DNA from: Taiwanofungus camphoratus
Taxonomy: Eukaryota; Basidiomycota; Agaricomycetes; Polyporales; Taiwanofungaceae
Direction: 5' to 3'
NCBI GenBank assembly: GCA_003999685.1
Contig: CP021221.1
Coordinates: 372,001-436,000, forward strand
Length of the DNA stretch: 64,000 nt
Shown here: positions 7,813 through 26,972 of the stretch, piece after piece
Position numbering within the stretch: the first letter of the stretch is position 1
Layout: each line of letters opens with the position of its first letter
Program-made: the position numbers and the translations under genes
The notes under the pieces: model-generated
Database searches by the model: none
Seen by the model: only the letters and a program-made list of their open reading frames with translations
Told to the model about the DNA's origin: nothing

Positions 7813-8355
7813 TGATACAATTTCTTTTATCGCATATCTTATCGGTCAGACCTCGGATCGGTCCCGTGACCTTTCTCTTCTAGGACGAGCCTCGGGTAGG
7901 CCCAACTTTTTCGCGCAGCGTCTTGACTCATCGCTGCTTATGGTACGGGCCCCGGTTACTCATGGACTCTGACTCATATCGGGCCCTGCTTACACATTCT
8001 GTCTTACGCTTACTGATTGCTAATACGGCCCAATGACTCATATCGCCTTACTTACGCTTACTCATGCTGATTCTTAGACCACGTGCCATGGTCCGTGCGC
8101 AGAGTAGAATACGTATATAAGGCCCTGTACTTTGTAGGTCGGACCTTAAGTTCGATCTGGTTACCAAGTAGCTAGTTACCACTAGCAATCTTATACTCAT
8201 ATCTTGTGACCTCTCACTTCGTACCTGAGTACTTGCTCGACTCTATCGACTTCGCCCAGGAGGACATATGCAGTGTCCATAAAGCCTCGCTACTATCTCT
8301 AGTAGTCAGGTCCTCACGTTTGAGGCTTTCCAGTCTTTGATACCAGTTTGTATCA
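7813..8355 (+). repeat. LTR-1 copy between direct repeats R
   Basis: A 543 bp copy of LTR-1 (TGATAC ... GTATCA) carrying the TATATAAGGCCC promoter motif. It lies exactly between the two R copies and has no matching 5 bp target duplication (left tgtat, right tcctg). It is the same length as the two solo LTRs inside element A. Confidence 0.85.
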
Positions 8356-10196: not shown

Positions 10197-10696
10197 TGTT
10201 ACCGGGGGGTTCACCCTGGTAATGCTGCAGAAGCTTAAAGCAGTGTGCAGCGAAGGGTCGAGGAGGAGTGGCAGTGACGATGAGTCACGATCCTCAGTAG
10301 TCTTCAACTACAAGCCCTATGTAGTCACAATAGTCTTTACGGGCTTCTTGGGGTGCGAGAAGGTGTGTAAAGAAAAGCGTGTATTGGTACTAATGCGTAG
10401 TACACTTCAGAATGGATGAACAAAGAGAATATGACTAAGGAAACCTTCAGCAGAGGGTCCCTCCTTTATACTGCCACTGCTGACCCCCAGGTATACTAAA
10501 CAGTCCCCCAGAGACAGCATAAGGCAAGAGGAGTCAGCAGCCCGAAAGTACATAACTATCATGGCGTAAGTGGGGATGGTCGGCCTGTCAGTTAATCTGG
10601 GTAAGTAATGCATGGAGGGGATGCCACATGTCCATGGTGTGATGAACAAAGGGAAAGAAAAAATGAACAAGTCTCTAGTCCTACCTGTCAGTAACA
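10197..10696 (-). repeat. LTR-3, 3' LTR of element A
   Basis: A 500 bp LTR matching 18472-18971, with TGTTAC/GTAACA ends. A purine-rich tract (sense GAGGAGACGGGGGTAG) lies directly upstream in the element sense, at 10697-10715. Confidence 0.92.
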
Positions 10697-10737
10697 CTAC
10701 CCCCGTCTCCTCTCAGGTGTTGCCCCGACACCTACTT

Positions 10738-11115
10738 TCATGACCTGGTAGCTTCCTCGTCAGGCTGCTTTGACCCACTGATTTCAGACCAAGCGGCCCC
10801 TGCCTTGAGGCATTGGTCGGTGTCGTGGTCATCAGCGTAACAATCCAGACAGCGAGGCGGGACGAAAGGCTCAACAGCTGGCTCCTCCAATCGTGGCCAG
10901 TGAATGCAGTCGGCAGCAGCATGATTGAGGCCCATGCAGAATTCACAGGCCCCAGCCCATTGGTTCAGGGGGTGGCACTCGGGGTGGAGACAAACTGTCC
11001 ACTTGTCTTGTGTGGAGGAGGCCGGGCGCATGATGACGGAGGAGGGTGGTAGGAGATGCTCGAGGGTGGAGACGACATTGGTGCAAAGGAGGAAATTTAG
11101 ATGGGAGCACGTCAC
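10738..11115 (-). pseudogene. element A 3' region with two CCHC zinc knuckles
   Basis: An open frame downstream of integrase and chromodomain encoding two classic retroviral-type knuckles, CEFCMGLNHAAADC and CLDCYADDHDTDQC (both CX2CX4HX4C). Element A also has a separate gag knuckle near 15480-15540, so this is an additional nucleic-acid-binding module at the 3' end. Element B has a counterpart in the same place. Confidence 0.65.
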
Positions 11116-11686
11116 ATTACAGGCCTGTCAGTATGATATACCAATTTCCCGGATGGGGCTGGCCCACCACTTAGCTTTATTGTGCTCCCTTTTCTCCCTC
11201 TTCCCTCTGTACCCCCTTATTACCTGATTGAGGTGTAAGACGACCTCAGCCTGATGTCGGAAAATGGCAACCTGGGCCGCAAGATCGGGCCAGATGACGA
11301 GGGCAGTGTCCACTGCTGGGCATAGTCGTTCGTTGGCCAGCACCCATCCAAGGTGGTCGGCAGGGGTCAGGAAGTCGACGGCGAGGCCAGATGTTGCTTG
11401 GCGAGGTAGGGAAACAACGATCCCCTTGGCAAAGTTGGGGAGGTTCTGCGGTCCCCAAAAGAAGGGGTTCAGGATGTGGGCGTTTCCTGCGGTGAGGATA
11501 GAGGTGGCAAGGTGGGCTCAGGTGGTGTTGGTTCGATGGGACATGGTGGGAGGTGGCCTTGAAATGCTGCAGAGTTGCTCTTTGCAGGATAGTTGAACGG
11601 TTGCCAACTGGGTTGATGCCTAAGTGGTTTGCCTTCTTATAACGCCTCAGCAGGTCAGGGGAATGCTGTAGATCATCTTTCTTCTG

Positions 11687-11881
11687 TCAGGTGCTGGCAG
11701 AGACTGGCCATTCCTTCCATTTGATGAGGAACTCCCACTTCCCACGTCGGGCATGATGCCCGTGGAGGGCCTCGACCTCGTACTCTTCTTCCTCTTCAAC
11801 CAGATCAGGTGGTGGTTTCAGAAAGTTGGGTCCATGTTCCACCGTTTCTCTATATAGGGTGAGCAGTGATGCGTGGAACAC
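11687..11881 (-). pseudogene. element A chromodomain
   Basis: An acidic stretch followed by EYEVEALHGHH ... KWEFLIKWKEWP, the chromodomain signature at the C-terminal end of integrase that defines chromoviruses. In this family it targets integration to marked chromatin. Confidence 0.8.
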
Positions 11882-12064
11882 TGGGTGAATCTTTCAGGTT
11901 CTCAGGAGCTGTAACTTGTACGTCAGTGGCCTCTTGGCTTTCATGATCTTGAAGGGTCCAAGCCACTTTGGATCAAATTTCCGACTTATTGTTCTTAGCT
12001 GGAGGTTCGTGGCTTCTAGCCAAACCTTGTCACCTTCCTGGAAAGGTTTCCAGAAAAAAGGGGT

Positions 12065-13039
12065 TCATTCCTCCATCAGCTTCTGGGCTAGCTCTTGCAC
12101 CACAAGGGCCTCTTTGCAGGATTCAGAGATCTGGGTTAGATGGTCTTGGAGCACGAGGTATTTGTCAGAGGGTCGTAGAGAGCTGATGGCCTTCGGGTCA
12201 TACCCCATAGTGAGCTTGAATGGTGATTCCTTCCTTCCAGCATGTGGCACCTGGTTGTGTGCAAATTTGAACTCAGGGATGTGTTTGACCCAGGTGTGGG
12301 GGTCATTTGCACATAGGATCCTCCAGACCGCCTCCAGTTCCTGGTTGACCCGTTCTGTACTCTCATCTGATTGGGGGTGGTAGGCGGTGGACATTGCCGC
12401 CTTGACTCCTGTCAGCTTACACCATTCCTGAAATGTGGCCGCTGTGAACTGTGGCCCTCGGTCGGATATCATCCGGTCAGGTAGACCATATCGCCTGTAT
12501 ACATTGAGGTGTAGGGCCTCTGCTGTCCCTACCGCATCTATGTTCTTGGTGCAGGGTATGAGCACAATGCCCTTGGTGAGTTCTCTGTCAACTACTACCA
12601 TGAGTGCATTGAAGCCCTGTGACTCTGGTAGATCAGTGATGAAGTCTACCAATATGTGAAAGAATGGCCTTGAATTTGGTTCTGTGGGGATGGCCATCAG
12701 GGGGGGTTTCGTGAGGTGTATGTTGATCTTGCTTTCCTGGCATTTGGCGCACCCCTCAACATATTTCTCGATGAATGAAGACATTCCGTGCCAAAACCAG
12801 TCCCTTCGGGCGATGGCCATCATACCTTGTGCCCCTGGGTATGCCATTGCTGGTGTGTCATGGCAGAGTTGAATGACTTCTCGGCGCAGATCATCATCAG
12901 GGGGTATATAAACTCGGTTTTTGTATAAAATTAGTCCCTCCTGAATGTCCCAGTCTGCCAGTTTTGTGTGTGCAAAGCCTGTGCCCTTAAATGGCGGTAC
13001 CTTCCCCCATTTTAAAGTGTCAATCGTCTCGATGACCAT
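12065..13039 (-). pseudogene. element A integrase
   Basis: Zinc-binding region with CAKCQESK, then the catalytic core with DFITDLPESQGFNALMVVVD and SDRGPQFTAATF, as in Ty3/gypsy integrases. It catalyses insertion of the cDNA. It is a fossil within broken element A. Confidence 0.88.
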
Positions 13040-13354
13040 TGTGTCACGACTACGACATTCATGTATTTTTTCGATGATTGTGGTGTTGGTGATGTTGACA
13101 AAGAGGTCTGTTGGTAGCAGGACAACACCTTCGTTGTCATGCTCCCCTTCAGGGTGGTCAGATCACTGGGAGAGTGCATTGGTGACTATGAGTCGACTGC
13201 CTTTTTTGTTTAATAGTTGCAGGTCAAATTGCAACAGGAATAACTGCCATCGGGCCTGGCGTCAGTTGAGTCATTGTGCTTCTTGGAAATAGGTGAGGTT
13301 CTTGTGGTCAGTGATCACCGTGACCGGGTGTCCACTTCCCTCAAGGTGGTGGCG

Positions 13355-14285
13355 TCATTCCTCAAGTGCTCGGACAATGGCCAGCAACTCTCTGTCATAT
13401 ACTTGGTAATTCCGCTCCACCTCTTTCAGGCTCTTTGAGAGGAAAGCTATAGGGTGTAGCCACCCTTTCTCATCAAGTTGTTGAAGCACCGCACCAGTGG
13501 CTATCAGAGAGGCATCGGCCTCAATGGTGAATGGTTTGGACAGGTCAGGCATATGGAGGATAGGCATGCTCTGAAAACACCATTTGAGCTCATCAAAGGC
13601 TTCCTGGCAGGCTTCGGGTCCAGTCCCATTCCACACGCTTCTTCTTGATGACATTCAAGGGGTGGGTGATGTGGGAGAAGTTGTGAATGAAGCGTCAGTA
13701 GTAGTTGGCGAGGCCCATAAATCGTTCTACATCCTTAACCCTGGTAGGAATGGGCCAATCTGCGATTCCTGCCAGTTTGTCCTTGTTCATGTGCACCTGT
13801 CCAGGCGAGATGGTCATTCCCAAGAAGTCAACTTCAACAACATCGAACACGCATTTCTCTGGCTTTACAAATAGGTCCCATTCCTGCAGTCGTTGTAGAA
13901 CACGTCTGGTTCGTTCCCGGTGGGCTTTCATATTGTCAGAGAAAATGAGGATGTCGTCCATATAGATCGTGATCCACCCCTCGGCCAGCATGTCCTGGAA
14001 TGCATCATTCATCATTTGCTGAAATGTGGCTGGCGAGTTGCACATCTCAAAGAACATGACAGTGGGTTCGACAATCTTGTCCTGATTTCCATGTTTTACC
14101 ATGAATGCTCCTTTCCATTGGTCCCCCTCTCTGATCTGGATGTTGTTGTACCCGTTTCGGAGGTCCAATTTAGTGAACACAGTGGCTTTTTGGAGCCTGT
14201 TGATTAGCTCTCCTATGAGGGGTAGGGGGTAGGCATCTTTGATTGTGCCCTTGTTCAGGTATCGGTAGTCCTGGCATAGGCGCAA
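13355..14285 (-). pseudogene. element A reverse transcriptase and RNase H
   Basis: RT (about 13695-14285) carries the catalytic YMDDIL box and [12 protein letters not shown]. RNase H (about 13355-13654) carries FTIEADASLIATGAVLQQ and the NYQVYDRELLAI motif. The order RT then RNase H then integrase is that of Ty3/gypsy. Confidence 0.88.
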
Positions 14286-14845
14286 GATACCATCCTTTTT
14301 TTGACGAAAAAGGCCGGGGATGCCATAGGTGAGTTCGATTCCTGGAGATAGCCCTTGGCCAGGTTCTCTTCCAGGAATTTGTCCATCACCGCCTGCTCAT
14401 TTGGTGACAAAGGAATTATGGCGCATTTTCTGGGGACAAAGTCTGGCCTTAACTCAATGGCATGGTCTCAGGGCTTGGATTCTGGGAACCGGTTAGAGGC
14501 CTCCTTTTCAAACAACCATTTATAGTCCCACAGGTACTCTGGGATGAGGTCTTCTATGGATGGGGGTGGGTCCTTGGGGATTACCAATTCTGTGAGCTCT
14601 GGGGCATTTCATACCATACGTAGAGAGTCAGAGAAGTGTGTCAGTCGATTGAGCCCCACTTGTGGGGGCTTTAGGGTCTGCAGTAGCCCATCTTCATGTG
14701 TGAGTGGCTGCTCATTCTGTTAGAAGATCCTCAGAACCCCTTCTCCTTGTGTGTAAGCACACAGTATGTCCAAAAGCTCCTCATCGTCTTCGTGAATGGA
14801 AGCTCGACACAGGGGAATTCCGTCTGTTGTGGGTTGGCTCATGAT

Positions 14846-15298
14846 TTAGGCATAGTATCCTTGCCATTCTGTAAGTCGAGCTTGGTCAATCTCAAGTGTT
14901 CCTTCTACCCAGTCAATGCATGGGTTGACTTGTGCAAGCCAGGGGTTGCTGAGTACTACATCGAGTGTTCCAATGTTTGAGACATAAAAGTTGGTTGGGA
15001 TGTCATTTCCCTCTAATTGTATACTTCCTTCGACTCTGTGGGTAATTGGTCCCCCTTTGTTTATAGAGCCATCAATGGTGGTTGAGGTTACTGTCCTGGG
15101 AAGCGGTCGAGTGGAAAGTCCCCACTTTCTTATGAAGTCGGGGTGAATTAGGTTAGCGTCAGCCCCACTATCCAACAAGGGGCATGCAGCGACGGCTTTC
15201 TCTCCTACTATGATGTAACCTGGTAAATAAAGTGTATTGTGCTTGCGCATTCCGGTAATTACATTTTGTACAGAGAGTTTAGGCGACTTGTGCGTCAC
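14846..15298 (-). pseudogene. element A aspartic protease region
   Basis: Contains LLDSGADANLIHPDFI, the retropepsin DSGA active-site context, between gag and RT. Confidence 0.8.
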
Positions 15299-15479
15299 GT
15301 CAGGTCGTCTTACAGAAAATCCGCAAAGTCATGGTGCTGAGAGAAGTGGGGGAATCTGACTCCTTTCATTTCTTGCCCCTGCTCCTCCTGTTTGGAGGCT
15401 TCATCATCCACCTCATTTTCGTCTTTCATGTTGGCCCTTCAGTTTGGGGGTCCTGTTCCTCGGCCTGAGGTTCGTTCAG

Positions 15480-15741
15480 GGCAGTCTTTGGCCAGGTGCC
15501 CCTTATTGTGGCATTTGTAGCAGAAGCCTGTCCTTCGGTCTTGCAAGTGCTGATGGTCTGGCTTTCCACTGTCAAATGCCCTTGCTGTGACTCATGGGGG
15601 GGTCTTCGAAGTTCTTTGAGCAGCATCGATGGCCTTGTTGTTCCGATAGGCCCAGTCCCATTGGGCAGCAGCTTCCTTCCATCCCTCTAGGGTTGTGGGG
15701 GCTACATCTCGTTCTATAATTTGGACTCACATGGTGCTGGG
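15480..15741 (-). pseudogene. element A gag C-terminal part with CCHC knuckle
   Basis: The minus strand encodes GFCYKCHNKGHLAKDC, a CX2CX4HX4C nucleocapsid knuckle. Gag continues upstream, beyond the solo LTR at 15742-16284. Confidence 0.75.
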
Positions 15742-16284
15742 TGATACAATTTCTTTCCTCGCATATCTTATCGGTCGGACCTCGGATCGGTCCCGCGACC
15801 TTTCGCTTCTAGGACAGGCCTTGGGTAGGCCCAGCTTCTTCACGCAGCATCTTGACTCATCGCTGCTTACGGTACGGGCCCCGGTTACTTATAGACACTG
15901 ACTCATATCGGGCCCCTCTTACACATTTCGTCTTACGCTTACTGATTGCTAATACGGCCCAATGACTCATATCGCCTTACTTACGCTTACTCATGCTGAT
16001 TCTTAGACCACGTGCCATGGTCCGTGTGCAGAGTAGAATACGTATATAAGGCCCTGTACTTTGTAGGTTGGACCTTAAGTTCAATCTGGTTACCAAGTAG
16101 CTAGTTACCACTAGCAATCTTATACTCGTATCTTGCGACCTCTCGCTTCGTACCTGAGTACTTGCTCGACTCTATCGACTTCGCCCAGGAGGACATATGC
16201 AGTGTCCATAAAGCCTCGCTACTATCTCTCATAGTCAGGTCCTCATGTTTGAGGCTTCTTGGTCGTTGATACCAGCTTGTATCA
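15742..16284 (+). repeat. LTR-1 solo LTR inserted in element A
   Basis: A 543 bp LTR with TGATAC/GTATCA ends and a perfect 5 bp target duplication, ctggg at 15737-15741 and 16285-16289. It arose by insertion of a full element into element A's gag and later LTR-LTR recombination. Confidence 0.95.
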
Positions 16285-16304
16285 CTGGGTAGTTTTTCTC
16301 GGTA

Positions 16305-16925
16305 TCAGGCCATGAGGGCACTCTCCTCAGTGATCTCTGCCCTGCGGGCCAGCCAATTGAACTCCTCGTTGAAGTCAGCAATGGGTTTGTCGTAGGTGTA
16401 GACCAAGTTCCGTAGTCCGATGGCTGCAGAGACCTCCTCCTCTATTACCCCAAACCTTTTGATGAACTCGAGAGCGACGCTCCTGAAAGTGCCGTACCCT
16501 CGGCTCGCTCCTCTGATGAGGGGGTGGGGCTCGAGTGCCCTTTCAGTAAGGGTATCGGCCCATGCACTGGCATGGTCTTTGAGGTGGCCAAGAAAATTGC
16601 TGACCTTTTCTCGTTTGGAAGCAGAGGCCCATCGTTCTGTGTCGAATCTTTGGGCAAACTGGATGAGGAAGTGTCGGGCATCTTCTCGTTTTTCAGAGAA
16701 CTTAGTAATTTCTGGCTCTTTTCGGTCGGGTATCCATGCAGTTCCTTGTGGGAGGGGTGTTCCTCCAGGAGGCTGCCCCCCCTCCTCCCCCAGGTGGTCC
16801 TCCTCTGCCAGGTGGTCCTCCTCCACCAGATGGTCCTTCTCCACCAGGTGGTCCTTCTGGAGGTCCTCCACTTCCATCATAAGACGGCCCTCCCTTGAGG
16901 GGGCCTTTCTCCCCCAGCCCATCAT
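16305..16925 (-). pseudogene. element A gag capsid region
   Basis: A Retrotrans_gag-like stretch with DARHFLIQFAQRFD, ASAWADTLTE and ADFNEEFNWLARRAEI, following a charged repeat of the type KDHLVEKDHLVEEDHLAEE. It is the structural protein of the virus-like particle and a fossil. Confidence 0.75.
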
Positions 16926-16997
16926 CGGGCGATGGCCCTGATTCCCCTATTCCTGATCAGAAAGAGCCCAAGCCATGGGGCGTTTCCGGGGTGGAAG

Positions 16998-17540
16998 TGA
17001 TACAAGCTGGTATCAATGACCGGAAAGCCTCGAACGTGAGGACCTGGCTACTAGAAACAGTAGTGAGGCTTTATGGACACTGCGTATATCCTCCTGGGCG
17101 AAGTCGATAGAATTGAGCAAGTACTCAGGTACGAAGCGAGAGGTCGCAAGATACGAGTATAAGATTGCTAGTGGTAACTAGCTACTTGGTAACCAGATTG
17201 AACTTAGGGTCCGACCTACAAAGTACAGGGCCTTATATATGTATTCTACTCTGTGCACGGACCATGGCACGTGGTCTAAGAATCAGCATGAGTAAGCGTA
17301 AGTAAGGCGATATGAGTCATCGGGCCGTATTAGCAATCAGTAAGCGTAAGACGGAATGTGTCAGCGGGGCCCGATATGAGTCAATGTCTATGAGTAACCG
17401 GGGCCCGTACCATAAGCAGCAACGAGTCAAGATGCTGCGCAAAGAAGCTGGGCCTACCCGAGGCCCGTCCTAGAAGCGAAAGGTCATGGGACCGATCCGA
17501 GGTCCGACTGATAAGATATGCGACGAAAGAAATTGTATCA
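16998..17540 (-). repeat. second LTR-1 solo LTR inserted in element A
   Basis: A 543 bp LTR in the opposite orientation to 15742-16284, with a perfect target duplication ggaag at 16993-16997 and 17541-17545. Confidence 0.95.
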
Positions 17541-17545
17541 GGAAG

Positions 17546-18458
17546 GGGATGTTTTTCCTGTTCCTTCAGTCTCCATTTGTTGTTCTGTCCATTCAATGTC
17601 AGGATTGGTCAGTTCTGAGCTGGAGCCTTCGTCAGAAGGTGGCTCGATTTCATCAAAGGTTGTCCAGCGGGCCTGGATGAGGGTGCAATTGGTTGGGGTA
17701 CAAGGTTTGAAATCACTTCTCCTGTAGAGTGCAGAGTCGTAGCGGTGAGGGCACGGTTGCATTGAGCAGACCCTCCAGTTAGAAGTCTTCGTGTAATGTT
17801 GATGTACATCCCAATTGTTCTCCACTTGATAACGATGAGCCTTCCTGGCACACGTCAGGGTTGACCTCCACCTCGTTTTGGAGGATGGATCCAGCTTGCC
17901 ACCGGCAATAGAAATCTTGTGCGCTCAGTAGCCTTTGATATAGGTTCACGATTATGGGAACAGCCAACTGAAATGAGAAACGTGGATTTGAGAGCACCTT
18001 CTGAGCCGTGAGGATATGGTGGTCGAGGACTTCATCAAAATCTTCAGAGGGAGTGGGAGGCAGAGGTCGGTTCCCTTCCCTACTTGTCAGCCTGTCATGA
18101 TTTTCTAATACAGCTTGCCAAGCGTCACTGGCTCTGGAGATGCAGGAGTGGGTGTAATGAATCAGCTCCCTCTGTTCAGCTGGGAGGAAACTGGTGGAAC
18201 TATCGACATGGAGAATGGCTCTGAGGTTGCGCTCAGCTCGATCCAAGACCTCTTCTAAAGTTGGGAGAGTAGGGTCAAATGCTGTGTGATCCAGCTCTTC
18301 TTCTTGTTCGTAGTTGATATCAAAAGGTCGTTGATAATCCGTGGTGGTCAGTACTAGTCCTATGAGTATGCTGGCCTCGCCTTCTTCAAGACCAATATGG
18401 GTCTTTTAGGCACTGTCTTCTTGTGACTTCTCAAACCTGGATGGGTTTGGGTTTGTGG
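17546..18458 (-). pseudogene. element A gag N-terminal region
   Basis: Minus-strand coding remnants between the 5' LTR and the capsid region, including ELIHYTHSCISRASDAWQAV. Broken. They contain no recognised enzyme motif. Confidence 0.55.
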
Positions 18459-18469
18459 AGTCGTATTCT
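18459..18469 (-). other. element A primer-binding site, self-priming type
   Basis: Two bases inside the 5' LTR the element-sense sequence is AGAATACGACT. It is complementary at 10 of 11 positions to the LTR's own 18701-18711, which lies 34 bases past the TATAAA box, where the RNA should start. The one mismatch is at a CpG. Confidence 0.6.
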
Positions 18470-18471
18470 AG

Positions 18472-18971
18472 TGTTACTGGGGGGTTCACCCTGATAATGC
18501 TGCAGAAGCTTAAAGCGGTGTGCAGCAAAGGGTCGAGGAGGAGCGGCAGTGACGATGAGTCACGATCCTCAGTAGTCTTCAACTACAAGCCCTATGTAGT
18601 CACAATAGTCTTTACGGGCTTCTTGGGGTGCGAGAAGGTGTGTAAAGAAAAGCGTGTATTGGTACTAATGCGTAGTACACTTCAGAATGGATGAACAAAG
18701 AGAATATGACTAAGGAAACCTCCAGCAGAGGGTCCCTCCTTTATACTGCCACCGCTGACCCCCAGGCATACTAAGCAGTCCCCCAGGGACAGCATAAGGC
18801 AAGAGGAGTCAGCAGCCCGAAAGTACATAACTACCATGGCATAAGTGGGGACGGTCAGCCTGTCAGTCAATCTGGGTAAGTAATGTGTGGAGGGGATGCC
18901 GCGCGTCCATGGTGTGACAAACAAAGGGAAAGAAAAAACGAACAAGTCTCTAGTCCTACCCGTCGGTAACA
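18472..18971 (-). repeat. LTR-3, 5' LTR of element A
   Basis: A 500 bp match to 10197-10696. In the element sense it carries a TATAAAGGAGGG promoter box (18740-18745 region). Confidence 0.92.
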
Positions 18972-19004
18972 ATGCTAGTCAAATCTCTTGTACTTCACTC
19001 TACA
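18972..19004 (+). repeat. LTR-2, copy 2, middle piece
   Basis: A 33 bp slice of LTR-2 left between elements A and B. It starts with the right target duplication of A (atgct) and ends with the left one of B (ctaca, 19000-19004). It matches the section of copy 1 that continues from 9627. Confidence 0.8.
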
Positions 19005-19558
19005 TGATACAAGCTGGTATCAACGACCGGAAAGCCTCGAACGTGAGGACCTGGCTACTAGAAACAGTAGTGAGGCTTTATGGACACTGTGTATGTCCTC
19101 CTGGGCGAAGTCGATAAAGTCGAGCGAGTACTCAGGTACGAAGCGAGAGGTCGCAAGATACGAGTATAAGATTGCTAGTGGTGACTAGCTACTTGGTAAC
19201 CAGATCGAACTTAAGGTCCGACCTACAAAGTACAGGGCCTTATATACGTATGCTACCCTGCGCATGGACCATGGCACGTGGTCTAAGAATCAACATGAGT
19301 AAGCGTAAGTAAGGCGATATGAGTCATCGGGCCATATTAGCAATCAGTAAGCGTAAGACGAAATGTGTCAGCGGGGCCCGATATGAGTCAATGTCTATGA
19401 GTAACTGGGGCCCGTCCAGGGCCCGTACCGTAAGCAGCGATGAGTCAAGATGCTGCGCAAAGAAACTGGGCCTACCCGAGGCCTGCCCTAGAAGCGAAAG
19501 GTCATAGGACCGATCTGAGGTCTGACCGATAAGATACGTGATGAAAGAAATTGTATCA
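19005..19558 (-). repeat. LTR-1, 3' LTR of element B
   Basis: A 554 bp LTR with TGATAC/GTATCA ends. It shares with 25520-26073 an 11 bp insertion in a GGGGCCCG-rich stretch that the 543 bp solo copies lack. A purine tract (sense AGTAGGGGGGTAA) lies at 19559-19571. Confidence 0.95.
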
Positions 19559-19832
19559 TTACCCCCCTACTTATGATTGAACGCCTGGTCAATCAACTAA
19601 ACTCCAATGGGGACGCGTCGAGTTTCTCTGAGTCAAACTTTGACGACCGTCGACGAACTTGATGAACTTCCGAGGATGAACTTGAAAAACTTTCCTGGAA
19701 GTGACAAGCGGGTGTTTCACCGCGACCGATAAGGGATGACCCTTGAACCCATAGGGGATGACCCCTCCAACTGCAAGCATCCTTTCAGCTCGAACTTTAC
19801 AGTTTTACGACATGTCGGTCATGCATTGTAGT

Positions 19833-20087
19833 TTAGCGATGTGCACGGTCGTTCCCTCGCAGTTTAATGACATGCAGGAACCACTCTGGATGATATGGCA
19901 GTACCGGGTCATTGGCGAATGCGTAGTTGACGGCGGTGCATTCGCGCGTAAAGTGCCCAGGCGATGGGTGACTACAGTGGAGACACTTGTAGTCGGGGCA
20001 CGTCCTGTGCGAGTGACGAGTGCTACCACAGAGGTAGCACGGACCGTAGCGAGTGAGCGAGGATGAAAGACCGTTTGATTGAGACAT
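19833..20087 (-). pseudogene. element B 3' region with two CCHC zinc knuckles
   Basis: Encodes CYLCGSTRHSHRTC (CX2CX4HX4C) and CLHCSHPSPGHFTREC (a looser CX2C..H..C), downstream of the chromodomain and distinct from the gag knuckle near 24270. It sits in the same relative position as in element A, although the two elements differ in LTR sequence. Confidence 0.65.
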
Positions 20088-20159
20088 GCAAGTGATGAGT
20101 GGGGTGAAAGTGTGACTTTTCTTTTACTCATCGTAAATTCTTGCGCTGCTTATATGCGC

Positions 20160-20345
20160 TTAGCAGCTCGTCCGCAGTACCAGCTAAGTTCTCCTTCAGT
20201 TCCCATGAGTCATCGGTGGATGAGTAACCTTTCCACCTGACTCGATATTCTCGGCGATTCCTTCAGCAATTCTCACGATGTCCAACCAGAGCTTCGACTT
20301 TGTAGTTATCTTCGCCACTGATAAGCTCCGGTGGTGGTTCCATGT
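20160..20345 (-). pseudogene. element B chromodomain
   Basis: Element-sense translation contains the hallmark EYRVRWKGYSSTDDSWE, the second half of a chromodomain, directly following integrase. Confidence 0.8.
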
Positions 20346-20415
20346 AGTTGGGACCATGCGTGTCTGTCTCGGTGTATGGTGAAAGGAGTGTGGCGTGGAA
20401 AACGGGGTGCACTCA

Positions 20416-21912
20416 TCATGTCATCGGGAGTTTCAGCTTGTAAGACACTGGTCCTAGAACATCCGTGATTTTGAAGGGTCCCTTGCGTCTGGGAGCCAAA
20501 TTCCTTGTCGGGTATGGCAGCTTTAGATTTCGTGAGTCTAGCCATACCTTTTGTCCTTTGCAGAAACCCGTTCCCTTGGGTTTCACGCGTCTTGCTAACA
20601 CCGCCTGTGCTAGCTCCATTGCTGAGTGTGCGTCTTCCCGAATCTTCTGCAAGTTCCACAGTCGATAAGTGGCACCCGGTGTGTCCGATCCGGGGTGTAC
20701 AACGGGAATCCCTCGAGGTTCATAGCCCATCATGACCTTGAAGGGTGATGCCTTGATTGTAGAGTGCTCACGCGAGTTGTGAGCGAACTGTGCTGAGCCT
20801 AGCAGCGACGACCAATTGTCCGGGTTGTTGCTCGTGAAGCATTGCAGGTAGATCTCTAGTTCCTGGTTGACTCGTTCTGTCTCTCCGTCCGTTTGAGGGT
20901 GGAACGCTGTGCTCATAGCCGACTTGACTCTGGTCATACGGCAGAGCTCCTGAAATACCTTTGATGTGAATTGTGGTCCTCGATCGCTAATGATCTTGTC
21001 CGGAAGACCAAACCACTTGTAAACCTCACGATATAATGCCTCAGCTGTTCCTGATGCGTCAATCGTTTTGTTGCATGGAATGAAAATTACCCCCTTTGTA
21101 AGGTCGTGGTCCACAACGACCAAAATTGAATCATAGCCCTCTGAAGTCGGTAAATCTGTAATGAAATCGCAGCAGAATGTACTGAACGGAGTGGCATGCT
21201 GCGCGGATTTGATCGGGAGTAGGGCTGGTCGGGTGGGGTGCGTGTTAACTTTCATTTGCTGGCAGATGCCGCAACCTTTGACGTATCGCGTGACGAAGTC
21301 AGCCATTTCAGACCACCAGTAGTCTCGTCGGATAGACAAGAGAGTTTTCTGAATTCCGGAGTGGCCAGCGGAGGGGAGGTCGTGATAATTCGAGACCGTT
21401 TGTCGTCGTAGATCCTCATCCAGGGGAATATACATCCGATTGTCATAGAGGAGGTCTCCATCTCGAATTGTCCAGTGGTCGTTTGAGCCGTTTTGTGCAT
21501 TGCGCATCCCTTCCGTATACACCGAGTCATTTACGCATGCCTCCACGATGGAAGCCCTTAGACTCGTGTCGATTGCTGCTGCCCATACCTTGTCTGGTAG
21601 GACGGTTACATCCTGGTTGTCTGATGAACCGTCATCATGGTCGGGGCAGCGGGATAGCGCGTCGCTTTGCACCATTTGTGTGCCCGGGACGTGAATTAAC
21701 CTATAATCGAACTCGAACAAGCGAAGAGCCCATCGCGCTTGCCTTCGATTCAGATTCTGTGCCGTCTTCCAGTACGTCAGATTCTTGTGGTCGCTATAGA
21801 TCGTGACTGGATACGGGCTTCCGATGAGGAGGTGACTCCATTTGTTGAGTCCCCTCATGACACCCATGAGTTCCTGGTCATAGACGTCGTAATTTCGTTC
21901 CGCTGGTGTCAT
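20416..21912 (-). pseudogene. element B RNase H C-terminal part and integrase
   Basis: Starts with the RNase H end (NYDVYDQELMGVMRGL, SDHKNLTYW). The integrase zinc region follows with CGICQQMK, and then a core with DFITDLPTSEGYDSILVVVD and SDRGPQFTSKVFQELC. Its length and order match Ty3/gypsy pol. Confidence 0.9.
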
Positions 21913-21939
21913 GCTCTGGGAAATATAGCCGCATGGATG

Positions 21940-22950
21940 TCAATCACCGTTGTCGTCCTTTTGTCTGAGGACGGCGCCCGTGGCAAACTTCGATGCATCA
22001 GTTTCCAGCGTGAACGGCTTCTCCGGGTCAGGCATCTGTAAAACCGGTTGTTCCAAGAAAGCTTTCTTCAGTGTCTCGAAAGCTTCCTGCTGTTCATCGT
22101 CCCAGTGCCATTTGACGTCTTTTCGCATAAGCGAGACCAGAGGTTGGGCCAGATGCGAGAATCTGTGTATGAACTGACGGTAGAAGTTCCCAAATCCGAT
22201 GAACGACCGAACCTCCCTGAGGTTCTTAGGTATCGGCCAGTCCTTGATGCCGGCTATCTTAACTGGGTCCATGGCGAGTTGTCCGGGTCTGATGATCATG
22301 CCTAAGAATTCGACTTCTTGCACGTCGAATTTGCATTTCTCCGGTTTGAGATACAGGTCAGTATCTCTGAGTCGCTCAATAACTCACCGTGTTCACTTCT
22401 TATGCTCCTTGGGGTCTGTTGAGTAGATAAGGATGTCGTCCATATAGATTGCCAACCATCCTTCCTTGAGCATGTCTGCGAAGACCGTGTTCATCATCCG
22501 TTAGAACGTTGCCGGTGAGTTGCACATCCCGAAGAACATTACCAGGGGTTTGTAGAATGAGGGAGGTCCTTCCCCAGCTGCTGGAACACCAAACGCCGCT
22601 TTCCATTCGTCACCTTCCTTGATGCGAAGGTTGTTGTATCCCTGACGAAGGTCCATCTTTGTGAAGATTGTGGCGTTGTTGAGGCGTTCCAGAAGTTCCG
22701 TTACGAGGGGAAGAGGGTATCTGTCCTTGATCGTTCCCTCGTTGAGTTCCCTGTAGTCCTGGCATGGTTGGTATCTGCCGTCCTTCTTATCCACGAAGAA
22801 GAACGGGCTTGCGAGTGGCGATTTGGACGGTCGGATGTACCCCTTCTCTATATTCTTTTCGAGGAACTTGTCCAGTTCCGCTTATTGATCCCGGTTGAGA
22901 GAATACGTCGACTGCTTGAAGTCCTTAAAATCCAGCTTGAGATTTATCTC
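21940..22950 (-). pseudogene. element B reverse transcriptase and RNase H N-terminal part
   Basis: RT blocks include [18 protein letters not shown] and a MDDIL box. The RT connection and RNase H start (21940-22323) have KPFTLETDASKFATGAVL. Part of a broken pol. Confidence 0.88.
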
Positions 22951-23784
22951 GTGGTCGAACTCTGAATGCTGGGGAAGCCTCGCTGCCTTAGCTTTGTCAA
23001 ACACCGGGAGGAGATCATGGAGGTACTCAGGGACGAGTTCCGTGACTGGTTTCTCCTCTTTCTTGGCGTGTTCCTTGATAGCGAGTTCCGTGGACGTGGT
23101 GAGTCGATCGATGTCGTGCTTGACCTGCCAGATAAGACCGTTTTCGAGACGACGATAAGTTCCGTCAAGAGGGTACTTCTTTTCCATAAGCGGGGCGTCT
23201 CGATACGCCAGGTGTGAGTCCCGTCCATATGTCGTGATCCAATTGTCTCCCTTGATGAATGCTATGACCAGTTCATCGTCGTCGATCGTTTCCATCGCTT
23301 GATCCAGTGTGATACCGTTGACCAATTCTTCTACCAGGGGTGCAACTGGGATGTCGCAGCGTGCCGTCTGCCTAGACATGTCTGTCATCGGCAGGACAGG
23401 AGACATGGTGTCGACCACCTCGAAGTCTCCTTCATCCTCTACCTCCTCAATGGTGGGCTGCCATTGTTGCTTGAGGTGTTTGTCTCGTTCGGCAAGGAAT
23501 GCCGCTACTTGTGGACAAGGGGGTGCTGACCAGTCTACCTCATAGTCTAGCACGGGATCCAGGGCTTCTTCCTGTTCTCATTCAGCTAGTTTCTTCAGCT
23601 CCAGTCACGCTACTCATTGTGCGATGATCCCCTTTTTCCATTCTCGAGATTCTTGCAGGGTCATGCGATGCTTCAGTTTCACACGACCTCCCTTCCAGTC
23701 GATGCTGGGGTTCTCGAGTTTGAGCCATATATGTCCGAAGATGATGTCTTCGTTCCCTATACTGGCCACATATGCTTTGACAAA

Positions 23785-24095
23785 TCAGGGCTCGTTCCCA
23801 ATTTTGTACGATAGCAAGGTTTGCTTGTGGATGAGCGCTTGCTTGTTGGCAGTGCCATCCACGTTGAACACCGGTATGGGACGTGGTAGCGCCTCTGTCC
23901 GTAACTTGTGTTCTTTAACAAATCGTGGATGCACGAATATTCCCGATGTGCCACTATCGATGAAGGCACGGGCTTCAATGGCTTTTCGTCCCACAGTAAT
24001 CGGAATGTGCAAAGCTCTGTCATTCCGGACTACAAGTACAACACGGGATAGTGAAATGGATACGGGCAGTGGTTGCGTCGGCTCACCCTGCCCCT
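23785..24095 (-). pseudogene. element B aspartic protease region
   Basis: ARAFIDSGTSGIFVHPRFV is the retropepsin active-site context, between gag and RT. Confidence 0.8.
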
Positions 24096-25418
24096 TTAAA
24101 AATCCTTCGTTCCTAACTCCTCGAACATCGCCCTCTTCTCGTCTGATGAGAGCGTCTTGATGTACGAGCGGAAATCCATGGGGGATCGCACCTCGGGTTT
24201 CTTCGAGGTATTCCTTTGTCCGGTCTTGGCCATCGTCTTCAGACACCTGCGCACCGCGTGTCCTCCCTTGTGGCAGTAGAAACATAGACAATTGTCCATG
24301 TGGTACTTCCTTTCCTTCTCGCTAAGGCTGCATCTGTCTTCCCACTTCTTGGTGAATGGCGTGGGGTGTGGGGTAACGAGCGTGTCCACTTCCATGGGTT
24401 CACCGTAGTCGACGTCAGTGGTGGCCGAGAGGGTTTGGTCGATCCCTCTGTAGACGGCATCGAGGTGGAGAACGTCAGCGTACCATTTCTCCATGGAGTT
24501 GGGTCGTTCTGTATTGGTGCGGCCCGCAAGTGTCATGTAGATCTGGTGGTCCAGACCTTTAATGAAGATCGCCCTCAGCGTGGGGTAATCGTTCTCGGTG
24601 CGTTGGCCTTGGAGGCTCGTGAAAGTGTCCTTTAACTTGGCCTTCTCTGCCAGAAGTCGGAACCTCTCCACGTACATCTTTGTACTGACCCTGGTCTTCT
24701 TGTTTAGTTGCTTGGCCGGCAACTCCATTAGCACCTGGTGAGCCCGCTGGACTCCTTCATGCTCGGGGAACGCGAGTCGCAAGCTCACCTTGAATACGTC
24801 CCAGCTAGCGTAGGGAGCATGCCCTCCCGTGGCCCGTTCGTAAAACGTATCGCGCCAGATACGTGCGTCCTGCCCTCCTTTCATGAGAGCAACTGTGTAA
24901 GTGATCTTTGCATCATCGCTTAACCCTTGGTTGTTGGTGGCAGTGAGGTAGTGCTCCACCTGCTGGAGGAAACGCTCCAGGTCTTCTCCTTGCCCGGTGA
25001 ATGGCTCCGGTGCAGGAATGTCGAGCTTAAGGGGTCGACTCCCCTGTTGCTGTTGCACTGAAAGGTGCGCTATGAGCGCCTCGAGCTCCGCCCTGGTCAT
25101 TGTTGCGATAGTAGCCATCGTGGTAGGGGTAGTAGGTGTTACGGGGGTGGAAGGAAGTGATGGGAAGGTGGGAGTAGTTGAGGTGGCTATCAACGGTGTT
25201 GAAGGTATCGACGCGGGAAAGAAACCAGCTGGGTCTCTCCCGTCTGGCGGAGGGTTACATCTGAAGTAGGAGGCTAATTTCTCCTGTGCTCGTCGATTCG
25301 AAATTGTCCCTGCCCACGCTAGTGGAGAGTTCGGGTAAATCGGATCGAGGTTCTGGTCAACGAAAGTCCAATGAAGACGATCGTACAGAAGCGGTGCGTC
25401 GTTTACTTGAGTTGGCAA
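24096..25418 (-). pseudogene. element B gag
   Basis: A 440-residue open frame. A Pro/Thr-rich N-terminal part precedes a Retrotrans_gag-type capsid (LERFLQQVEHYLTATN, MKGGQDARIWRDTFYER) and a nucleocapsid knuckle CFYCHKGGHAVRRC near the C-terminus. This is the best-preserved reading frame of the element. It lies at the 5' end directly inside the LTR and primer-binding site, as expected. Confidence 0.88.
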
Positions 25419-25505
25419 TCCCCAAGCGGTGGGGTCGACTGTCTCGATGGTAGACGTGGTGTCTAACGGTTAGCCCTACTAGATAAGACTAGGGGCGACT
25501 TAGCA

Positions 25506-25517
25506 TAAGTTCGATCT
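25506..25517 (-). other. element B primer-binding site, self-priming type
   Basis: Two bases inside the 5' LTR the element-sense sequence is AGATCGAACTTA. It is perfectly complementary over 12 bases to the LTR's own 25717-25728, which lies 33 bases past the TATATAA box, where transcription should start. This is the layout of Tf1-type self-primed elements. Confidence 0.75.
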
Positions 25518-25519
25518 TT

Positions 25520-26073
25520 TGATACAAGCTGGTATCAACGACCGGAAAGCCTCGAACGTGAGGACCTGGCTACTAGAAACAATAGTGAGGCTTTATGGAC
25601 ACTGTGTATGTCCTCCTGGGCGAAGTCGATAAAGTCGAGCGAGTACTCAGATATGAAGCGAGAGGTCGCAAGATACGAGTATAAGATTGCGAGTGGTGAC
25701 TAGCTACTTGGTAACCAGATCGAACTTAAGGTCCGACCTACAAAGTACAGGGCCTTATATACGTATGCTACCCTGCGCACGGACCATGGCACATGGTCTA
25801 AGAATCAACATGAGTAAGCGTAAGTAAGGCGATATGAGTCATCGGGCCGTATTAGCAATCAGTAAGCATAAGATGGAATGTGTAAGCGGGGCCCGATATG
25901 AGTCAGTGTCCATGAGTAACCGGGGCCCGTCTGGGGCCCATACCGTAAGCAGTGATGAGTCAAGATGCTGCGCAAAGAAACTGGGCCTACCCAAGGCCTG
26001 CCCTAGAAGCGAAAGGTCATGGGACCGATCCGAGGTCTGACCGATAAGATACGTGATGAAAGAAATTGTATCA
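25520..26073 (-). repeat. LTR-1, 5' LTR of element B
   Basis: A 554 bp LTR about 96 percent identical to 19005-19558 by eye. TATATAAGGCCC in the element sense lies around 25755-25761. Confidence 0.95.
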
Positions 26074-26500: not shown

Positions 26501-26972
26501 CGGGCCTTGAGTAGGTCCAGCTTTTTCACGCAGTTCATTGACTCATGACTGCTTACAGTACAGGCCCCAGATGGGCCCCATTTACTCATAGACTCTGACT
26601 CATATTGGACCCTGCTCACACATTCCGTCTTATGCATACATATTGCTAATATGGTCTGATGACTCATATCACCTTACTTACACTTACTCACACTGCTTCT
26701 TAGATCATATGCCATGGTCCATGTGCAGAGTAGAATATGTATATAAGGCCCTGTACTTTGTAGGTCGGACCTTAAGTTTGATCTGGTTACCAGGATTCTA
26801 GCAATCCAGTAGTTGTATCTTGCAACCTCTCACTTCGTACCTGAGTACTCACTTGATATCCATTGACTTCACACTTTACAGACAACGGATTGTCCTTAAG
26901 TCCTTGCTACTCTATCTCATAGTTAGACCCTCACATTCAAGACTTTGTGGTCATTGATATCAGCTTGTATCA
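26501..26972 (+). repeat. old, 5'-truncated LTR-1 copy
   Basis: About 472 bp clearly related to LTR-1 (aggccctgtactttgtagg, final cagcttgtatca) but with many transitions and small indels, and missing roughly the first 80-90 bp. It is the most diverged LTR-1 copy in the window. Confidence 0.8.

Follow-up and report, generated by a model that had tools for sequence, protein, structure and literature searches.

Covariation between primer-binding site and long terminal repeat points to self-primed reverse transcription in chromodomain-bearing Ty3/gypsy elements of Taiwanofungus camphoratus

As described in the passages cited here, the first 11 nucleotides (nt) of the Tf1 RNA are complementary to its primer-binding site (PBS), and the RNA is cut between nt 11 and 12 (PMC7175516). 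Tf1 and Tf2 of Schizosaccharomyces pombe possess a chromodomain, the Tf1 RNA structure has two further duplexes beside the primer helix, and self-priming is described as common among Tf1/sushi elements (PMC10085805). It has also been proposed for Tcn1, a Ty3/gypsy element of Cryptococcus neoformans (PMC7175516), and inferred for Tj1 of S. japonicus, from complementarity of the PBS to the RNA 5' end or from a foldable 5' untranslated region (PMC4600332), and likewise for Tosmo1-3 and Tcry1 of other fission yeasts (PMC10085805). In mosses and club mosses, the majority of Tcn1-clade elements lack a PBS for a transfer RNA (tRNA), and self-priming is predicted (PMC6317226); for SM-Tcn1, the passages of its report cited here state that neither tRNA priming nor self-priming was in evidence (PMC2864245). 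Here I describe two retrotransposons with long terminal repeats (LTRs), elements A and B, both on the minus strand of a 64,000-nt stretch of the T. camphoratus genome (C2:372001-436000, hereafter the window). I read both as chromodomain-bearing Ty3/gypsy elements with self-primed reverse transcription, at a probability of about 0.92. Self-priming as such is already known from Tf1/sushi elements, and what A and B add is covariation evidence.

The sites on which this reading turns are as follows, in window coordinates.

25518..25519, minus strand: element B, spacer AA between the 5' LTR and the PBS (from the sequence)
25507..25517, minus strand: element B, PBS of 11 nt, exact complement of 25717-25727, with a 12th pair via 25506
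25717..25727, minus strand: element B, predicted RNA 5' end and self-primer (+1 to +11), complementary to the PBS and 34 nt below TATATAA
25755..25761, minus strand: element B, TATA box TATATAA (from the sequence)
18470..18471, minus strand: element A, spacer CT between the 5' LTR and the PBS (from the sequence)
18459..18469, minus strand: element A, PBS of 11 nt, AGAATACGACT, pairing at 10 of 11 positions with 18701-18711
18701..18711, minus strand: element A, predicted RNA 5' end and self-primer, with one CpG transition
18740..18745, minus strand: element A, TATA box TATAAA (from the sequence)

In element B, AGATCGAACTTA (25506-25517) is a perfect 12-nt complement of the element's own LTR at 25717-25728, and the first T of TATATAA lies 34 nt ahead of the first base of the 11-mer. 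TATAAA likewise begins 34 nt upstream of the first base of the 11-mer in element A. A sequence-only reading of this DNA had noted both complementarities, placing each below its TATA box, and both were recovered, exact over 12 nt in B and at 10 of 11 positions in A. Its distance of two bases from the 5' LTR also stood, but the sites lie past the LTR and not inside it; similarly, the 12 pairs are real in B, but the relevant match is 11 nt, the 12th pair being lost in some relatives.

The chance level of such matches was estimated by keeping the PBS 11-mer fixed and shuffling the element's own LTR 1000 times with dinucleotides preserved. At least 10 of 11 positions matched in 4/1000 shuffled LTRs for A and 4/1000 for B, and all 11 in 1/1000 and 0/1000, respectively. 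Among 1475 other internal 11-mers per element, the number reaching at least 10 was 2 in A, 0 in B, 2 in L097 and 5 in L099 (copies of the related subfamilies A3 and B2), and 14 in L139, a copia-like control. When the PBSs of A, B, A3 and B2 were compared with the LTRs of the other subfamilies, the match was 9 of 11 positions at best. Taken alone, the self-match of element A is therefore only suggestive; it is made secure by other genomic copies, in which the pairing is found.

Copies were compared within one 33.2-Mb assembly of 15 contigs, in 105 pieces: element B, element A (L001) and 103 further genomic pieces. The source hit lists scored 40/220, 85/431, 40/381 and 112/354 candidates. Twenty pieces came from the lower-identity part of the 85-place list, together with L099 from that same list, 20 from a 41-row list and 41 from places in the 112/354 list, while 21 places were taken from the 40/220 list, namely those that extend to the PBS end or close to it. 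Eight copies were sampled twice (L041/L099, L070/L097, L071/L122, L072/L132, L073/L134, L074/L135, L075/L098 and L076/L137). Both sites, the PBS and the predicted RNA start within the LTR (R-site), were placed by aligning the flanks with the 11-mers masked, or by direct reading for L047, L057 and L112. This left 77 usable pieces, each from a different place, and 28 in which both sites could not be placed. Direct reading of these 28 gave both sites exactly in L099, L125, L128 and L130, the PBS only in L043, and the R-site only in L078 and L098, the latter having no LTR pair.

The sequence-only reading had proposed looking for covariation between the two sites across many copies, and such covariation is indeed observed. 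The two sites are complementary at 11 of 11 positions in 66 of the 77 usable copies, at 10 in ten and at 9 in one, and the perfect pairs come in eight distinct versions with differing 11-mers. By subfamily, perfect copies number 14/22 in A, 3/4 in A2, 16/16 in A3, 19/21 in B and 14/14 in B2. The commonest 11-mer is AGTCGTATTCT in A, AGCTTTATCCT in A2, AATCTTGTCCT in A3, AAGTTCGATCT in B and AAGTCTGATCT in B2; all five begin with A and end with YCT. The spacer is AA in all 21 usable B pieces and all 14 usable B2 pieces, and CT in 21 of the 22 usable A pieces.

Collapsing the copies gives 16 distinct haplotypes, with 167 of 176 positions matching. When the PBSs were permuted among these haplotypes 20,000 times, the mean was 113.6 and the maximum 149, so that 167 was never reached; the haplotypes share kinship, and this result should not be read as a p value from independent samples. 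The weight of the covariation is carried instead by the differences between subfamilies, together with two-sided changes in L047, L096 and L137, which fall inside a subfamily and away from CpG. Two-sided changes of one pair occur in four copies, these three and L092. One-sided changes number 12, each of them a C>T or a G>A.

The extent of the pairing also bears on primer length. In usable pieces of A, A2 and A3, the bases flanking the 11-mer on either side are unpaired, and by this comparison the pairing in the A lineage is limited sharply to 11 nt. About 26 of the 35 B and B2 pieces have one more pair beyond the 11-mer, which the rest, for instance L047, L099 and L112, lack. Representatives of all five subfamilies have a TATA-like box 33-35 nt above +1 (distances counted by eye for A2, A3 and one B2), which in A3 reads TACTTAA. 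In RNA folding, the helix between primer and PBS had a predicted mean pair probability of 0.76-0.97 in all ten sequences folded. In eight of the ten, the free minimum-energy fold equals the helix-forced fold in energy; in L097 the free fold lies 0.2 kcal/mol below it, and for element A, where forcing involved a non-standard pair, the forced-fold energy cannot be compared. Alifold consensus folding kept the 11-base-pair (bp) helix as outermost stem in the A and B sets, with z scores of -6.3 and -6.1 against 30 column shuffles.

Several observations weigh against the self-priming reading, or restrict it. Element A itself reaches only 10 of 11 pairs, and the responsible R-site change is found in both of its LTRs, as well as in L002 and L005, so that either inheritance of a variant or repeated mutation may account for it. 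The two-sided change of L137 is a C>T with a G>A, albeit not at CpG; that of L092, a copy with heavy decay, lies at CpG and may be a coincidence, and was not counted as firm. Direct reading found no site pair in 21 of the 28 unplaced pieces. Seven of these (L041, L070-L074 and L076) are misplaced, the pair having been read in the copy's other piece, but the other 14, cut at guessed distances and perhaps not all including the LTR, may include a non-self-primed relative. The full 11-bp helix is not retained in alignments of B2 or of B and B2 pooled. For the two additional duplexes of the Tf1 'pretzel', no conserved, covarying helices were found in an analysis that left out the L101, L108, L135 and A3 alignment rows (possible wrong strand); candidates for the flanking duplexes vary between subfamilies, while the central duplex is predicted. 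Finally, the RNA start sites of A and B are predictions made from DNA sequence.

The mismatch in element A is most simply read as CpG decay. Its R-site has an A in place of G within a CpG, and the identical perfect pair AGTCGTATTCT/AGAATACGACT is present in 13 of the 22 A-type copies, a fourteenth having a different perfect pair. Over 30 CpG columns, the 5' LTR of element A has lost 14 and the 3' LTR 19, of which 10 are common to both. Decay is higher in the eight mismatched A copies than in the 14 perfect ones (Mann-Whitney p 0.004), with L095 as an exception, since it keeps a perfect pair despite heavy decay. As a side observation, many element copies carry TGA stops and the A copies are CpG-decayed, which suggests a repeat-linked or methylation-linked mutation process.

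Priming by a host tRNA, through its 3' end or a copia-type internal fragment and with the self-match incidental, has precedent, as the plant LTR elements surveyed in the passages cited are mostly tRNA-primed, about 2% of them by a half-tRNA (PMC6317226). This was examined with 52 distinct ARAGORN tRNA predictions, mitochondrial ones included, introns not removed and some isoacceptors missing, a gap that leaves this alternative some room. One representative of each of the five subfamilies (A, A2, A3, B and B2) was inspected, and none has a TGG in the first 30 nt past the LTR; the best tRNA 3'-end match in this incomplete set is 6-7 of 11. Priming by a tRNA 3' end found no support on these grounds, and the better 3'-end match that had been suggested as a refutation was not found among the 52. 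Half-tRNA priming was not supported either, as the best internal matches (8-9 of 11, reaching 10 of 12 at best when the first 12 nt are taken) are no better than those of shuffled 11-mers (mean 8.3-8.4, maximum 10) in the same set. Moreover, covariation with the LTR of each subfamily is not what a host RNA primer would predict, and a tRNA primer is very improbable.

Slightly less improbable, but still with little in its favour, is that the complementary sites serve packaging, dimerisation, circularisation or translation control. Pairing by itself is no proof of priming, and in retroviruses long-range 5' pairings have other roles. However, the site lies at the place expected of a PBS, 2 nt past the LTR, where no tRNA-type PBS was seen, and its length and position agree with the Tf1 primer as described in the passages cited (PMC7175516). 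Least credible of all is that the match is due to chance or to an old inverted repeat passively carried along. The shuffles would allow this for element A considered by itself, with 4/1000 at 10 or more positions. However, the 15 B2-type pieces have LTR regions only 64-70% identical to B and differing 11-mers, and the pairing is nevertheless perfect in 33 of the 35 usable B and B2 copies. Self-priming is thus supported by the covariation, by the position of the site and by the lack of a match in the tRNA set, and the Tf1-like mode proposed from the sequence is upheld.

By analogy with Tf1, from which I infer transcription start, cleavage and priming in A and B, the process may be pictured as follows. 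Transcription would start about 34 nt below the TATA box, at the A of the 11-mer, and the RNA would fold back so that its first 11 nt pair with the PBS, which lies two nt past the 5' LTR. Cleavage by RNase H behind nt 11 would then release the 3' end of the 11-mer, which would prime minus-strand DNA.

A further suggestion, which I hold tentatively and consider somewhat less probable than its negation, is that the PBS is rewritten in each round, with plus-strand DNA copying the retained 11-nt primer and the pair evolving in concert. In this way, a change at the RNA start would enter the PBS without a second mutation. Consistent with such concerted evolution, the subfamily differences and the three non-CpG variants are two-sided and the one-sided changes are of decay type, while part of the B lineage shows free variation at the base next to the primer. 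Selection for pairing alone predicts the same pattern, and the data do not separate it from rewriting. If true, concerted evolution would explain how primer and site continue to match while both change. The self-priming reading itself provides covariation evidence across five subfamilies in one genome, and base-exact RNA start predictions for all five. It also offers a candidate annotation rule, namely an AGR-initial site two bases past the LTR whose complement lies in the LTR, about 34 nt below a TATA box; elements fitting this rule may be self-primed ones that tRNA-based PBS finders miss.

The remaining features of the two elements are as follows.

19005-26073, minus strand: element B, whole, with LTRs of 554 bp and 5-bp flanks TGTAG at both ends
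25520..26073, minus strand: element B 5' LTR, TGATACAA...TTGTATCA, 96.1% identical to the 3' LTR (blastn stretch)
19005..19558, minus strand: element B 3' LTR, from LTR comparison
19559..19571, minus strand: putative polypurine-tract-like stretch preceding the element B 3' LTR, labelled from the sequence
20419..21939, minus strand: element B piece with RNase H, integrase and SH3_Tf2-1 (Pfam)
20131..20262, minus strand: element B chromodomain, C-terminal part (PF00385, E 2.5e-11, over the cut-off)
10197-18971, minus strand: element A, whole, with LTRs of 500 bp
18472..18971, minus strand: element A 5' LTR, TGTTAC...GTAACA, 95% identical to the 3' LTR
10197..10696, minus strand: element A 3' LTR, with the same R-site variant as the 5' LTR
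12068..13162, minus strand: element A integrase piece (PF17921, PF00665)
11690..11893, minus strand: element A chromodomain, N-terminal part (PF00385, E 4e-05, 23.9 bits against a cut-off of 25.1)
16998..17540, minus strand: solo LTR of family B inside element A, with flanks CTTCC and R-site AAGTTCAATCT

The LTRs of element B differ at 21 positions, 19 of them transitions, and those of element A at 25, every one a transition; the 5-mers flanking element A differ between its two ends. Since the solo B LTR sits within element A, the latter is older than that insertion. Pfam domains include reverse transcriptase, RNase H, integrase and SH3_Tf2-1 in pieces of B, and reverse transcriptase, integrase, protease and SH3_Tf2-1 in pieces of A. 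In element B a stop codon splits the chromodomain into an upstream and a C-terminal part, and PF00385 is also found in the relatives L099 (B2) and L097 (A3). The elements had been called chromoviruses from the sequence, which agrees with PF00385, over the cut-off in B and just below it in A. In contrast, the description of two unrelated LTR families did not hold, as A and B share 41% identity over 362 amino acids (aa) in their integrase pieces. By this comparison A and B are distant relatives, and there may be one inherited priming mode rather than two independent ones.

For a placement of A and B in the Tf1/sushi clade, the protein searches gave only a Pfam SH3_Tf2-1 match. The best match to a solved structure is Ty3, and no chain named Tf1 or sushi is among the 60 of 73 matches shown. 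An NCBIfam search added nothing, and an Rfam scan of the window gave no match. Plasmid records outside this genome yielded three matches at 26-27% identity and nothing useful, while a search in contigs of other genomes gave nine pattern matches, none of them confirmed.

Some neighbouring features were seen along the way. Between the chromodomain and the 3' LTR of element B, a minus-strand frame at 19836-20123 has, by eye, two zinc-knuckle-like motifs; this stretch has no Pfam hit. The corresponding frame in L099 (L099:7491-8852, plus strand) is open over 454 aa and matches PF00098 (E 5.8e-08). L099 itself (C1:244823-254743), of B2 type, has its 5' LTR about 1.5 kb nearer the integrase than in B, as if its gag were shortened or missing, while its 3' zinc-knuckle frame is open. 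L039, L040, L044 and L049 have no LTR at the distance seen in B and may resemble L099. A 229-nt repeat family has copies at window positions 7947-8175, 15876-16104 and 26573-26801, one of them within the span of element A.

The control L139 (L139:1133-7174, on C2, some 3 kb to the left of the window) is a Ty1/copia element with 100% identical LTRs and the Pfam domains RVT_2 and Retrotran_gag_2. Its PBS matches its own LTR at no more than 8 of 11 positions at the offsets tried, and at 7 at offset 2. This PBS, GGTTATGAGCCC, resembles a half-tRNA-iMet site in its motif and is a putative one.

Compared with the known systems, A and B share with Tf1/sushi elements a PBS complementary to their own LTR, with no tRNA match in the set of 52, a predicted primer of 11 nt, and a chromodomain at the integrase C-terminus (over the cut-off in B, just under it in A). 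The combination typical of tRNA-primed Ty3/gypsy elements, TGG with complementarity to a tRNA 3' end, was not found with the 52 tRNAs. In the passages of the literature retrieved, a search with the founding Tf1 papers outside it, I found no covariation test of primer and PBS across many copies of one genome, which is weak evidence that none exists. Moss and club-moss Tcn1-clade elements are alike in their predicted self-priming, but their hosts are plants. Tj1, Tosmo1-3 and Tcry1 share the same inferred self-priming, with other hosts and families, while Tcn1, compared by description, is like A and B a fungal Ty3/gypsy element with proposed self-priming. Relative to Tf1 and Tf2, the flanking 'pretzel' duplexes were not convincingly found in A and B, and the RNA 5' end is here a predicted one. 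As far as the cited descriptions allow the comparison, A and B resemble Tf1 in an 11-nt self-complement at the PBS, and both Tf1 and Tf2 in a chromodomain.

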